From NCBI GenBank assembly GCA_036227345.1, contig CP109468.1, forward strand, positions 5,332,001 through 5,396,000: a stretch of 64,000 nt of DNA, given 5' to 3'. This DNA is from Streptomyces sp. NBC_01463. GTDB lineage: Bacteria > Actinomycetota > Actinomycetes > Streptomycetales > Streptomycetaceae. Positions 30,402 to 35,360 of the stretch are shown one piece after another. Both the position numbers and the translations under genes were made by a program. The notes under the pieces were generated by a model that was not told the origin of the DNA, searched no databases, and saw only the letters and a list, made by a program, of their open reading frames with translations. Numbering within the stretch: the first letter of the stretch is position 1; every line of letters begins with the position of its first letter.

Positions 30402-30464
30402 CGGCGGACAGGCTCGGGTGAGGAACCGTCCGGCTCACGCTGTCGTCGTCACGAGCGGTCGGCC

Positions 30465-31700
30465 TCACCGCGGTGTGAACTCGACCGGGAGTGTGCGCAG
30501 ACCGCGCATGATGAGTCCGCCCCGCCACCGCAGGTCGGAGGGGTCCACCGCGAGCTGAAGGTCCGGCAGGCGGCGGAACAGGGTCTCCAGGGCGGTGCGG
30601 CCCTCCAGGCGCGCCAGGGGGGCACCCAGGCAGTAGTGGATGCCGTGCCCGTACCCCAGATGCTGGTTGTCCCGGCGGGACAGATCGAGTGTGTCGGGCT
30701 CCGCGAATCGGTCCGGATCACGGTCGGCCGCTGCGAGTACGACGAGTACGGGATCGCCTTCGCGGATCAGCTTTCCCCCGATCTCGAGAGGTTCCGTGGC
30801 GTAGCGCCAGGTGGCCAGTTCCACCGGGCCGTCGAAGCGCAGCAGCTCCTCGATGGCCGTGTCCAGGAGACGGTTGTCGCCTCGCTGGACGGCACTCTGG
30901 AACACGGCACGCTGCGGGGGGTTGCGGAAGAACGCGTGGGCGCTGTTGCCGATCAGGTTGATGGTCGTCTCGAAACCCGCGAAGAGGATCACGAAGCACA
31001 TCGCGGCGGCCTCGTTCTCGGTGAGGTGCTCGCCGTGGTCGCTCGCCCGGATCAGGCCGGAGATCAGGTCGTCGCCGGGGTTCTCCCGCTTCCTGTGAAT
31101 CAGCTCGGCGAGGTAGGCGCGGATCTTCTTCACGGACCGTGCGACCCCGCCGCGCGGACCGCCGCCGTGCCGGATCATCATGCCCGCCCAGTCGCGGAAG
31201 TCGTTCTGGTCCTCCTCGGGTACGCCGAGCAGATCACAGATGGCGTAGATGGGCAGCGGGAAGGCGAATTCATGGATGAGGTCGGCCTCCCCCTTCTCCG
31301 CGAAATCGTCGATGAGCCGATCCGCCAGCTCCTGCACGCGGGGCCCGAACGCGGCGATCGTCCGGGGCGTGAACGCCTTGGACACCAGCCGGCGAAGCCG
31401 TGTGTGGTCGGGCGGGTCGATGTTCAGCAGGTGCGTCATGAGGTTGGCGCTGCGCTCCCCAGGGATGCCGGTCCTGCTCTTTCCCTGGGCGTCCTCGGCG
31501 TGGTGCGCCGGGTTCTTCGAAAGACGGCTGTCGGCGAGGGCCTGTCGTGCCTCCGCGTACCGGGTAACCAGCCATGCCTCGACGCCGCTGGGCAATGTCG
31601 TCCGGTGTACGGGGCTCTGTTCCCTCAGCCAGGCGTAGGCGGGGTACGGGTCGGTGGCGAACTCCCAGGTGAAGAGTTCGGGCGGCGGGGTGTCGTTCAC
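30465..31700 (-). CDS. Cytochrome P450 (CYP107-like)
   Basis: This 411-aa protein is a full-length bacterial P450. The I-helix reads FVILFAGFETTINLIGN (oxygen-activation A-G-x-E-T), the K-helix is EELLRFDGPVELATWR (E-x-x-R), and the heme loop is LGYGHGIHYCLGAPLARLE with the Cys ligand. It should be a heme monooxygenase needing ferredoxin and reductase partners, none of which is adjacent. GTG 31700 gives the usual N terminus (FTWEFATDPYPAYAWLREQSPV soon after). No good ribosome site precedes it, so it may be leaderless. The C-terminal remnant at 33969-34304 comes from a close paralogue. Confidence 0.92.
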   Translation of the reverse strand: MNDTPPPELFTWEFATDPYPAYAWLREQSPVHRTTLPSGVEAWLVTRYAEARQALADSRLSKNPAHHAEDAQGKSRTGIPGERSANLMTHLLNIDPPDHTRLRRLVSKAFTPRTIAAFGPRVQELADRLIDDFAEKGEADLIHEFAFPLPIYAICDLLGVPEEDQNDFRDWAGMMIRHGGGPRGGVARSVKKIRAYLAELIHRKRENPGDDLISGLIRASDHGEHLTENEAAAMCFVILFAGFETTINLIGNSAHAFFRNPPQRAVFQSAVQRGDNRLLDTAIEELLRFDGPVELATWRYATEPLEIGGKLIREGDPVLVVLAAADRDPDRFAEPDTLDLSRRDNQHLGYGHGIHYCLGAPLARLEGRTALETLFRRLPDLQLAVDPSDLRWRGGLIMRGLRTLPVEFTPR

Positions 31701-31958
31701 ATGACGACGGTATCGGGCGTCTGTCTGCGGGTGAGCCGCCGCTGCCGGTGTTCCACACTGTCCGTTCCGAAGTGCCCCGCGGGCTCGCTGTCGAACATCA
31801 GTGGCCCTGGTGACTCTGCTCCGCTGAGGCATCAGGCACGGGTAGGCTGCCCGAAAAACGGCACCGGCCCCAGAACGCTTGGTAGAGCGCTATGAGGCCG
31901 GAACCTTCCCGGCGGTGCGTCAACACCCCGGGGACGGAACAGTCTCGGAGGACTGAAC

Positions 31959-33941
31959 ATGCCCATTGTGGCACGCCCGCGCCGGCCTGAATCTGCCACG
32001 ATCGTGGTGGCGAAGTACACGCGCGTTTCCACCCGCGACCAGCTCGACGGATTCGGTCTCGAAGACCAGAACGCCATCTCCGATGGGTGGCTTGCCCGCC
32101 ATCCGGAGGCCGACGTCTATGACGCGTACGTGGACGAAGCGGTGTCCGGTGCGCTGGACAGCCGCCCGGAGAGGGACCGGCTCGTCCTCGACGCGCGTAA
32201 ACGACGCTTCAACCGCATCCTTGTCCCCAAGGTGGACCGCATCGGCCGGACGGCCCGTGCTGTGTACCAGTGGGCTTGGGACATGGCGGACCTCGGCGTC
32301 CACTTCATTTCGGTCAGCGAGAGCATCGACACCAGCACGGAGTCCGGCTGGTCCCGGTTCATGCAGCACGTCAGCTTCTCCGAGATGGAGTGGCGTCGCA
32401 TCAAGGAGCGGACCTTCGCGGGCCGCGAGCTGAAGATCAGTTACGGGGGCTGGCCCGGCGGCCCAGCCCCCTACGGCTACAAGATTGCGCAGGACACCTA
32501 CGTGGTGGGCGACCGCCGGAAGAAGTTCAGTGTGCTGGTCACCGATGAGTACGAATCCAAGGTGCTCTTCGTCGCTGTCGAACTCATCGTCGACCACGGT
32601 ATGAACATCTCCGAGGCCTGCGACGAGCTCAACCAGCGCAGGCTCTACACCCGAAGCGGTGTGCCGTGGGGGCCTGCGAACCTCCGCAGCCGCCTCCACG
32701 GCGAAACCATCCACAGTGGCTACGTCACCTACCGAAAGACCACCCGAGGCACCGGCAGGAGCACCACCCAGTGCCGTGAAGACGGCACCCCCGTCCACGG
32801 TGACCAGGCCAGAATCGGCGTGCCGCCCATCCTGCCCCAGGAACGTGCCGGACGTCTTATGGAGACGCTCAAGAAGATTGGCTTCAAGAACGGCCGCATC
32901 CACGCCCAGATCTACCCCTTGAGCGGACGGATCGACAGCCTGTGCGGTTCGGTCTACATCGGCGCCGGTCGGCGCGAGAAGGCGCGCGCCGACCGCTGCA
33001 AGGGTATGGCGAAGAAGGGGGAGCACTGCGGAGAGCCGTGCTTCAACGCGGCAGAGATCGAAGGTGTCGCCTGGGCCGAAATGGCCAAGCTCATCAAGGA
33101 AGAATCCCAACTCCAGGTGATGGCGGCCGAGTGGGTCAGCAGCTTCCCGGGGGACAAGGGGAAGTACGAGAAGCGTGTTACCGACTTCGGCGACAGAATC
33201 GCGAAGCAGGAGGACCTCATCCACCAGCAGGTCCCCGCGTACATGAAGGCTGGCATCGACCCCCTCGTGCTCAAGGCGGGGCTGAAAGAGATGCAGCGGG
33301 AGCTGGACGAGTACCGGAAGCAGAAGCGCATCGCTGAAGAGTGGTTGCAGACGTACGCGAAGTCCGAGCGTCAGGCACGCAACCTTGTCGACCTCGTGAA
33401 CAACCCCCGCGAGCGCTTCGACATCATGACGCCGGCGGAGCGCAAGGAAGTCTTCGACATGTTCAACATCCGTGTCACGCCCGGGACGATGGAGAACACG
33501 GCGAAGCCGGGCGTCAAGTGCGAGATCACCCAATGGCACCACGAAACGGCCACCCTCGTGCCTCCCGACCCGACGGACGAGGAGTGGGAGGCCGTCCTCA
33601 CGGTGCTTCACAGGCTCCTGTCCGGAAAGTCGAAGAAGCACTTCACATCGAAGTACGACATCCGCGCGCAGTTCTGCGGCATGCTCCACCGGCTCCGGCA
33701 AGGGCTGTCATGGGTCGACATGCCTCAGGCATGGGGGCCCATCGACCCCATGCGGGAACGTCAGCTCTTCTGGTGGAAGAGAGGTGCCTGGCCCGAGGTC
33801 ATGGCGGTTCTGGGTGCGGACCGCAGGGGCGTTGAGGCGTATCGGCGTCCGACTCTGCCCCAGCTCACGGTCACAGGAGAGCTCCGTGGCAGCCTGCTGT
33901 CGGCACGGAGTGAAGCCCCCAAGGGCAGGGGGGCGCCATGA
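31959..33941 (+). CDS. Large serine recombinase/integrase with an IS5-transposase-like (DUF4096-like) C-terminal domain
   Basis: This is a 660-aa protein from ATG 31959, after CGGAGGAC. The N-terminal catalytic domain has VVAKYTRVSTRDQ (nucleophile Ser24), GALDSRPERDRLV and VDRIGR. A recombinase domain (about 165-300) follows, then a Zn-ribbon region with CGSVY and CGEPC (about 328-365) and a coiled-coil insertion (about 400-470). This is the large serine integrase layout of phages and ICEs. Beyond it, residues about 536-620 read DPTDEEWEAVLTVL, AQFCGMLHRLRQGLSWVDMP and FWWKRGAWPEVMAVLG. This matches the N-terminal DNA-binding domain of IS5-group transposases (DUF4096), an unusual fusion. No other mobile genes are adjacent. 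Confidence 0.9.
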   Translation: MPIVARPRRPESATIVVAKYTRVSTRDQLDGFGLEDQNAISDGWLARHPEADVYDAYVDEAVSGALDSRPERDRLVLDARKRRFNRILVPKVDRIGRTARAVYQWAWDMADLGVHFISVSESIDTSTESGWSRFMQHVSFSEMEWRRIKERTFAGRELKISYGGWPGGPAPYGYKIAQDTYVVGDRRKKFSVLVTDEYESKVLFVAVELIVDHGMNISEACDELNQRRLYTRSGVPWGPANLRSRLHGETIHSGYVTYRKTTRGTGRSTTQCREDGTPVHGDQARIGVPPILPQERAGRLMETLKKIGFKNGRIHAQIYPLSGRIDSLCGSVYIGAGRREKARADRCKGMAKKGEHCGEPCFNAAEIEGVAWAEMAKLIKEESQLQVMAAEWVSSFPGDKGKYEKRVTDFGDRIAKQEDLIHQQVPAYMKAGIDPLVLKAGLKEMQRELDEYRKQKRIAEEWLQTYAKSERQARNLVDLVNNPRERFDIMTPAERKEVFDMFNIRVTPGTMENTAKPGVKCEITQWHHETATLVPPDPTDEEWEAVLTVLHRLLSGKSKKHFTSKYDIRAQFCGMLHRLRQGLSWVDMPQAWGPIDPMRERQLFWWKRGAWPEVMAVLGADRRGVEAYRRPTLPQLTVTGELRGSLLSARSEAPKGRGAP

Positions 33942-33968
33942 ACATTCCGGAGGCTTCAGTCCTAGCCG

Positions 33969-34304
33969 GTCGAGGGCGACCCCGTCCTCGTCGTGCTCGC
34001 CGCCGCCGACCGGGACCCCGGACGCTTCGACGGGCCGGACACGCTGGACCTTGCGCGGCGTGACAATCAGCACCTCGGTTACGGTCACGGAATCCACTAC
34101 TGCCTGGGAGCGCCGCTCGCCCGGCTGGAGGGGCAGGCCGCGCTCGCCACGCTTCTGAAGCGCCTTCCGGATCTGCGACTTGCGGGGGAACCTGCCGATT
34201 TGCGGTGGCGTGGCGGGCTCATCATGCGTGGACTGCGCACCTTGCCGGTGGAGTTCACCCCCGGCCCGGCGCGCGGGCAAGGTGACACTCTGTCAACTCT
34301 GTGA
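33969..34304 (+). pseudogene. C-terminal remnant of a second cytochrome P450
   Basis: Homology to the intact P450 begins abruptly at about 33972 (EGDPVLVVLAAADRDP), after an in-frame TAG at 33963-33965. It continues through the heme loop LGYGHGIHYCLGAPLARLEG to LIMRGLRTLPVEFTP. It lacks the N-terminal three quarters, including the I-helix and ExxR, so it cannot be active. It starts about 30 bp after the recombinase stop and resembles one arm of an interrupted attachment-site gene; the matching 5' part is not in the window. It is about three quarters identical to the intact P450, so it is a paralogue and not a fresh duplicate. Confidence 0.85.
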
Positions 34305-34409: not shown

Positions 34410-35360
34410 ATGGGCTCCGCGAACGGCAGACACCGTCGCCCTCGGCAGGCACCCGCGATCATCGTCGCCGCAGGCGTGACCGGTTCCGCCATCGCCATCC
34501 CGCTGCTCGGCGCGGCGGGCGCGCACGCCGCAGACGCCTCGACCTGGGACCGGGTGGCCGAGTGCGAGAGCGGCGGCATGTGGAGCGCCGACCTCGGCAA
34601 CGGCTACTACGGCGGCCTGCAGTTCTCGCAGGAGGTCTGGAAGTCGTACGGCGGCGAGTCGTACGCCGAGCGTGCCGACCTCGCCAGCCGCTCGCAGCAG
34701 ATCGCCGTGGCGGAGAAGGTCCTGGAGGACCAGGGGCCGAAGGCGTGGCCCAGCTGTGCGGTCATCTCCGGTCTCGTCGCGGACAGCGGCCTGCCGGGTG
34801 TGGACCCGGGCACCACGCCCTCCCCGGAGCCGTCCGGCAGCACCGATCCGTCCGCGGACACGGACCCGTCCGCGGGGACCGGTGCGTCGGACGACGCGTC
34901 CGGTGACGCGGCGGGTGATGCGATGAACCCGTCGGACTCGGCGGACGACGCGACCGACGACGCGACGGACGGCGGCGGGAAGGCGGACGCCTCGGCGTCC
35001 CCGTCCGCCACGCCGTCCACCACGCCCTCGGACGACGCCTCGGACCCGGCGAAGGAGAAGAGCGGCAAGCATCGCGGCGCTCCGGCCCCCGAGGAGACGC
35101 GGCAGACCGGTGGCGGCAGTGACCGGGACTCGGGGCGGCATGCCTCGCGCGGCAGTGGTGATGCACGCGACACGGGCGCCCCGGCCGCCGACGGGACGTA
35201 CACCGTCCGCGCCGGCGACAACCTGTGGGCCATTGCTGATGCACAGAAGCTGTCCGGCGGCTGGGCCGCGCTGTACGAGGCCAACAAGGCCGAGGTGGGG
35301 TCCGATCCGGACCTCATCCTGCCTGGCCAGAGCCTCGATCTCGGCGTGAAGGCCGAATGA
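34410..35360 (+). CDS. Resuscitation-promoting factor (Rpf) with C-terminal LysM
   Basis: This 316-aa secreted muralytic enzyme has a signal peptide (basic start GSANGRHRRPRQAP, hydrophobic core, cleavage near AHA-ADAST, about 42). The Rpf domain (about 43-120) is [39 protein letters not shown], in which the Glu of AECESGG is the expected catalytic acid. A long Asp/Ser/Thr/Pro-rich linker (about 125-255) leads to a LysM domain (about 263-314: YTVRAGDNLWAIADAQKL). It should cleave peptidoglycan during spore germination and growth. The position matches rpfC of S. coelicolor as I remember it. A terminator separates it from the next rpf, so each gene has its own promoter. Confidence 0.9.
   Translation: MGSANGRHRRPRQAPAIIVAAGVTGSAIAIPLLGAAGAHAADASTWDRVAECESGGMWSADLGNGYYGGLQFSQEVWKSYGGESYAERADLASRSQQIAVAEKVLEDQGPKAWPSCAVISGLVADSGLPGVDPGTTPSPEPSGSTDPSADTDPSAGTGASDDASGDAAGDAMNPSDSADDATDDATDGGGKADASASPSATPSTTPSDDASDPAKEKSGKHRGAPAPEETRQTGGGSDRDSGRHASRGSGDARDTGAPAADGTYTVRAGDNLWAIADAQKLSGGWAALYEANKAEVGSDPDLILPGQSLDLGVKAE

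Follow-up and report, generated by a model that had tools for sequence, protein, structure and literature searches.

For inserting large DNA into genomes, large serine recombinases (LSRs) rank as leading tools, and how their targets are chosen is an open question. The LSRs Bxb1 and phiC31 combine a catalytic serine domain, a recombinase domain, a zinc ribbon and long coiled-coil helices. In a 64,000-nucleotide stretch of Streptomyces sp. NBC_01463 (contig CP109468.1, positions 5,332,001 to 5,396,000; hereafter the window), we analysed a gene encoding an LSR with the same parts, which we call REC. Unlike Bxb1 and phiC31, REC has a degenerate zinc ribbon and carries a DUF4096 domain after its coiled coil. 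By profile comparison, this tail is homologous to the N-terminal domain of IS5-group DDE transposases (DUF4096, NF033580). Unlike these transposases, REC is without a DDE catalytic domain and has the chemistry of a serine recombinase.

Full-length relatives of REC occur in four temperate Streptomyces phages of the Arquatrovirinae (Hank144, phiHau3, Triumph and Diane), whose integrases show a DUF4096 match at the same place and belong to the same wider family. These integrases serve phages, whereas the window's REC sits in a 3.5 kb chromosomal cassette together with a cytochrome P450 gene. PMC10276819 reports that its twelve phages have diverse serine integrases, for most of which attP is not known, and the words 'transposase' and 'DUF' are absent from the accessible part of that text. 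An LSR group that likewise has an extra domain suspected in target choice is the multi-targeting clade of PMC13137831, where DUF4368 is reported in 63% of the clade and suspected in loose targeting. The REC family differs from it in having another Pfam domain and in lineages that share fixed targets (P450, dprA and the region upstream of ispG), which is the opposite of multi-targeting; DUF4368 was not among the five Pfam matches of REC up to an E value of 10. The architecture is already visible in the Pfam columns of the protein database searched, and the phage proteins are already annotated as serine integrases. In the literature searched, no paper paired DUF4096 with 'serine recombinase'.

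A transposase-type domain on a serine integrase

Pfam DUF4096 (PF13340) matched residues 539–614 of the window's REC with an E value of 7.5e-7 (29.7 bits, below the cut-off of 34.3), and NCBIfam IS5_3 (NF033580) matched residues 539–621 at 8.9e-9, likewise below its curated cut-off, over profile positions 6–84 of 258. When scanned singly, all 37 sequences of our alignment A1 contained the domain at E ≤ 1e-3 (best 1.3e-15); A1 is our own selection from the 120 hits of a protein search with REC, and a second alignment, A2, holds 82 of them. Profile–profile comparison (hhalign) aligned the tail profile A3, made from the window and 24 of 25 loci (L115 omitted), with the N termini of IS5-type transposases from the same genome (A4; six of ten reading frames, repeats omitted) with a probability of 98.1% and E 8e-14 over 84 columns. 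Scans with Pfam and NCBIfam found no DDE catalytic domain of IS5 transposases in REC. Judged by these matches, the tail is a real homologue of the IS5-group transposase N-terminal domain, and the preliminary description, which had placed DUF4096 by eye at residues 536–620, had the range right.

The remainder of REC follows the layout of large serine integrases, including a catalytic Ser24, that had been proposed from the sequence. Its ATG is preceded by a Shine-Dalgarno sequence (by eye) and its N terminus, MPIVARP, is conserved in A1. Ser24 (codon at 32028–32030), Arg69, Asp93, Arg94 and Arg97 are invariant in the 37 A1 sequences, and PF07508 and the zinc ribbon were each matched in 32 of these at 1e-3 when scanned singly. 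Compared with solved structures in the PDB, the predicted REC model matched Bxb1 (4.5e-19) and phiC31 (1.1e-17) best. The full model has a mean predicted local distance difference test score (pLDDT) of 83.6 and a predicted template modelling score (pTM) of 0.42, a value at which the placement of domains is not fixed; in it, the DUF4096 tail sits behind the predicted coiled-coil helices, separated from them by a short linker. By domain content and fold, REC belongs among the genuine large serine integrases. The signs of attP × attB recombination are genomic traces, namely a split dprA with an element between its halves and remnants of P450 genes.

We then compared selection along the protein from pairwise ratios of non-synonymous to synonymous substitution (dN/dS, w) among eight coding sequences (window, L096–L100, L102 and L106), the pairs of which are not independent; L101 was omitted for an early stop, and L051, L052, L095, L109, L115, L117 and L165 were not entered. 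Median w was 0.157 in the catalytic segment, 0.226 in the recombinase-domain region, 0.40 in the zinc ribbon and coiled coil, 0.40 in the linker, 0.165 in DUF4096 and 0.47 in the segment after it. Purifying selection acts on DUF4096 as strongly as on the catalytic domain, and with a median w this low the tail appears to have a function of its own instead of being passive. Modelled alone (mee9f500a4ed6; mean pLDDT 85.7, pTM 0.75), the tail has two helices, 69–82 and 96–108, with a conserved Trp-containing turn between them, which by eye resemble the helix-turn-helix of the transposase domain; a fold search of this model against solved structures gave no clear match.

Distribution of the tailed family

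The protein search returned the window's own protein first, and 68 of the first 74 hits list PF13340 in their precomputed column. A profile of the DUF4096 part matched 71 of these 74 closest hits (the window's protein included), the other three being only 417–490 amino acids long, and found the tail in none of the remaining 46 of the 120. The four phage integrases share 27.8–29% identity with REC over 95–99% of the query. Pfam DUF4096 matched all four, each below the gathering score (Hank144, 5.6e-6; phiHau3, 0.0041; Triumph, 4.4e-6; Diane, 2.3e-4), the family tail profile matched Hank144 and phiHau3 and missed Triumph and Diane, and tblastn with the tail alone retrieved six phage records (E 7e-4 to 3e-3). 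By these comparisons, the phage tails are homologous to that of REC but diverged. Searching with the phiHau3 integrase gave 187 hits; the tail profile matched 108 of the best 120 of these 187, which is a lower bound, Triumph being among the 12 missed. Of the organisms named among the matches listed, almost all were Streptomyces or Streptomyces phages; Streptodolium and Streptacidiphilus had one entry each.

A tree of residues 12–400 was built from 118 of 127 sequences (omitting those shorter than 480 amino acids, P0069 and P0071), with the two phage proteins missed by the profile labelled as tailed on Pfam evidence. All 76 proteins labelled as tailed fell into one clade together with two truncated members (support 0.52), and support was 0.96 once the tailless P0075 was included. 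On the simplest reading of this tree, the tail was gained once, before the phage and chromosomal lines split. The preliminary description had proposed a fusion of two unrelated recombination families. Of this, an LSR carrying a true homologue of the IS5-group transposase N-terminal domain, without the DDE part, holds; an isolated or recent fusion is not supported, the tail being present in most close relatives and the tailed proteins forming a single clade. Other serine recombinases with the same tail turned out to be many, and the tail, although its DUF4096 match is significant, is by its distribution a regular extension of long standing in a single LSR subfamily, which is found mainly in Streptomyces.

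Two otherwise diverged members, P0042 and P0060, have a C-terminal extension in common, their last 20 residues ending in FTVIVK; perhaps the frame reads here through an attP that was not split, or through a different target.

Targets of tailed integrase lineages

REC loci were collected from searches of 392 Streptomyces genomes and of genome contigs (36 loci). In six of them (L053, L055, L056, L024, L029 and L030) the 3' half of dprA lies directly behind REC, as read by eye from translations. REC stands just upstream of ispG in L057, L062, L110–L114, L116, L118, L119 and L121, and single insertions were seen in EF-Tu-like, dihydropyrimidinase-like and metallophosphatase-like genes (all by eye). 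Outside the P450 locus, these are the loci that were assigned a target in this reading. In four of seven REC genomes searched for dprA (G027, G359, G391 and G178), the N-terminal half of dprA shares strand and contig with REC and lies 10.4–11.1 kb upstream of it; it was on another contig in G050 and G127, and dprA is a long open frame in G131, where REC lies elsewhere. A tailed LSR thus stands at the right end of gene-splitting elements of about 10–11 kb. One lineage that splits dprA, with an element between the halves, indicates integrase-like behaviour. Judged by their genomic neighbourhoods, REC lineages are tied to fixed, shared target loci, namely dprA, the region upstream of ispG and a P450 gene beside an rpf-like gene.

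The P450 locus

Of 37 Streptomyces genomes, 35 contain an orthologue of the P450 of this locus (E 1e-150), and wherever REC is absent (28 of 28 loci) the gene precedes the rpf-like gene in the same orientation. In the window, a cassette consisting of REC and a second P450, P450', occupies the place of 977 bp in L162 (empty locus of G179). P450' is intact and retains the motifs AGFETT, ExxR and GYGHGIHYCLG. Behind REC lies the 3' remnant of the resident P450, 94% and 93% identical at the nucleotide level to the native P450 of G070 and G179, respectively, and 75% identical to P450'. The window flanks are 91.5–97% identical to those of L161–L163, the full P450 only 79–80%.

In a P450 tree rooted with two paralogues from the same genome, the native P450s formed a clade (0.913) in which L051 and L102 were the sole REC loci, and the window's P450' grouped with L115, L095 and L100 (0.954). 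The window's flanking gene grouped with natives L162 and L161 (0.775 and 0.697) in a tree covering 33 of 48 loci, the others being without a long enough match. P450' is, on this phylogeny, outside the native P450 lineage, and because it and the flanking gene fall in different clades, we read it as having replaced the resident gene, which it displaced in the window.

We compared 16 REC loci at this place (window, L095–L102, L106, L109, L115, L117, L165, L051 and L052), seeking remnants at E 0.01 to 1e-4 in 15 of them and only at 1e-8 in L165. Thirteen of the 16 have an inverted P450 that diverges from REC; in L051, L052 and L102 the gene lies on REC's strand. A 3' remnant of a second P450 was found behind REC in eight, and a 5' remnant before the inverted P450 in two (L097 and L106). 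Where the trace extends furthest, the REC frame itself runs into the P450 I-helix, reading FETTIDLIGN in P0009 and FETTVNLIGG in P0013 (two of 240 proteins by motif), and that of L100 ends in VNLIGGDAYPLP (P450 I-helix, FETT..LIG). Short collinear I-helix matches were also seen in L095 and L098 (E 3.6 and 0.29, not significant alone). Because these frames run into it, the evidence points to the I-helix codons of the P450 as a candidate attachment site.

Several loci depart from this arrangement in other ways. In L051, L052 and L102 the P450 lies directly upstream of REC on the same strand, and no remnant was found; the P450s of L051 and L102 are in the native clade, that of L052 is outside it. 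In L109, L117 and L165 an inverted P450' stands next to a diverged REC lineage (27–43% identity to the window's REC), as if the recombinase had been swapped at the same place. L096 holds a fragmentary second copy of the left flanking gene (L096:8345-8476; residues 184–227, 61% identity) beside the 3' end of P450', about 2.2 kb from the full copy; its cassette seems to have brought along a piece of its former neighbourhood.

Features of the window

The positions of all features are collected in Table 1. The leader of REC contains predicted hairpins that are conserved in 11 members of the P450 locus (window, L096–L102, L106, L051 and L052). Compensatory changes occur at nine of the 27 predicted pairs, and some pairs are lost in one to three of the sequences; the last hairpin, around the Shine-Dalgarno sequence, is invariant across the 11. 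An Rfam search of the leader matched no family. The hairpins may control REC translation.

Table 1. Features at the REC locus, in window coordinates.
Feature	Position	Strand	Basis or remark
Left flanking gene, conserved beside P450	29433..30401	+	93–94% nucleotide identity to L161–L163
Cassette of P450' and REC, 3544 bp (3.54 kb)	30427..33970		Collinear with L162 up to 30426 and again from 33971
P450', intact cytochrome P450 from a different lineage, 411 amino acids, divergent from REC	30465..31700	-	GTG start at 31700; ATG at 31832 also possible
Structured REC leader, three predicted hairpins, the last enclosing the Shine-Dalgarno sequence	31870..31961	+	27 predicted pairs, 11 sequences
REC, LSR with C-terminal DUF4096 domain, 660 amino acids	31959..33941	+	Open reading frame, Pfam, NCBIfam, protein search, models
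Catalytic resolvase domain, residues 18–163	32010..32447	+	PF00239 Resolvase, E 5e-23
Recombinase domain, residues 200–281	32556..32801	+	PF07508, E 3.1e-4, 21.4 bits against a cut-off of 21.1
Degenerate zinc-ribbon region, residues 321–375	32919..33083	+	PF13408, E 0.033, below cut-off
Long coiled-coil-type helices, residues 400–481	33156..33401	+	Predicted model m1ef96e3ad234, helices 400–430 and 435–481
DUF4096 / IS5-transposase N-terminal domain, residues 536–622	33564..33824	+	Pfam, NCBIfam, profile–profile, tail model, median w 0.165
3' remnant of resident P450, from residue 314 of 411	33971..34264	+	tblastn, 87% amino acid identity to P450'
Right flanking gene, named rpf-like by eye; follows P450 in the native order	34410..35360	+	Same strand as P450 in 28/28 loci without REC

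Alternative explanations

DDE transposases usually bind DNA through their N-terminal domains, and the tail is probably an extra DNA-binding domain for attachment-site recognition, with DNA binding suggested by this kinship. The preliminary description had envisaged a new target-recognition mode, which is plausible and fits the strong purifying selection on the domain. A tail that follows the coiled coil after a short linker could also be a DNA-independent module for protein contacts, serving to regulate the tetramer or to bind a recombination directionality factor: in large serine integrases, regulation works through the C-terminal parts, and complexes of phiC31 with its directionality factor were among the PDB matches of the REC model. 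We consider this unlikely, however, as the closest relatives of the tail are transposase N-terminal domains, in the position usual for DNA binding in DDE transposases. Still further down the scale is a functionless tail left over from an ancient fusion. Residues 645–660 of the REC model do have a pLDDT below 50, and residues 641–660 are the least conserved part of REC among the eight coding sequences, but DUF4096 itself matches the catalytic domain in median w, well below the linker and the segment that follows, and is kept in 71 of the 74 closest hits, which makes such a leftover very improbable.

The reading that we favour as a whole, an LSR with an attachment-site-recognising tail whose window cassette entered the resident P450 and brought a P450 of another lineage, has in our estimate a probability of slightly under 0.6. 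A number of observations weigh against it. REC looks broken in six of the 16 loci: in L095 nothing matches residues 1–49, the frame is interrupted in L052, L117 and L101, and L115 and L165 have deletions. In L109 and L117, REC is only 30–37% identical beside a P450' of 83–86%; no attL is preserved among the REC loci compared; L051, L052 and L102 do not fit a simple scheme; and L115, which shares P450', falls into the flank clade of the window and L161–L163 (0.98). The replacement may thus be older than the group of the window and L161–L163, with native copies kept or regained in the others, and a single integration could have been followed by spread of the cassette through homologous recombination between strains. 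A serious competitor, to which we give somewhat less than even odds, is that P450 was replaced by homologous recombination between cassette-bearing chromosomes, or that P450' is an old allele, with REC as a passenger. The flanks are homologous between strains on both sides, and the window remnant begins at residue 314 of 411, not at the I-helix, and such a history would sit well with the broken RECs and with L115. On the other side, in two lineages (L095 with L100; L098) the resident-gene traces behind REC share the I-helix codons as their starting point, as expected of an integrase's attR, and other REC lineages split other genes. P450' and the remnant also form 291-nucleotide inverted arms around REC, and the orientation of P450 varies between loci, as in an invertible switch in which REC flips P450 between two alternative 3' ends. 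This we find hardly credible, since the remnant is the host's native 3' end (closer to native genes than to P450', as given above), has decayed to differing lengths across strains and has 5' counterparts in L097 and L106.

A model for REC and its cassette

In the favoured reading, of which the domain homology, its conservation and selection, the lineage-shared targets, the position of P450' outside the native clade and the native remnant behind REC are shown, the common ancestor of the REC family would have gained an IS5-type transposase N-terminal helical (DUF4096) domain at its C terminus. The recombinase domain, zinc ribbon and coiled coil would do the usual work of an LSR, and the tail would most likely add a DNA contact, helix-turn-helix-like as inferred for the transposase domain, that helps to recognise the attachment site. 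In the window, REC would be the integrase with which a small cassette inserted itself into the resident P450, with a crossover probably at the I-helix codons, and carried in an intact P450 from a different lineage; the resident gene, now broken, would then have decayed to its 3' remnant. We infer that the tail binds DNA, that integration by REC itself brought about the replacement, and where exactly the crossover took place.

A bolder version, which we hold to be doubtful although not far-fetched, would make the DUF4096 tail a third module for reading DNA, one that fixes or refines the site choice of the whole LSR subfamily. The P450 lineage would then be a self-repairing integrative cassette that breaks a widely conserved Streptomyces P450 at the I-helix codons while its own intact P450, from a different lineage, takes over, so that integration amounts to allele replacement between species.

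The tailed family represents a natural experiment on target choice, with a separately derived domain that was apparently added once and is strongly selected, and with targets shared within lineages. If our reading of the P450 locus is true, its cassette would be a case of an integrase replacing the gene that it breaks.
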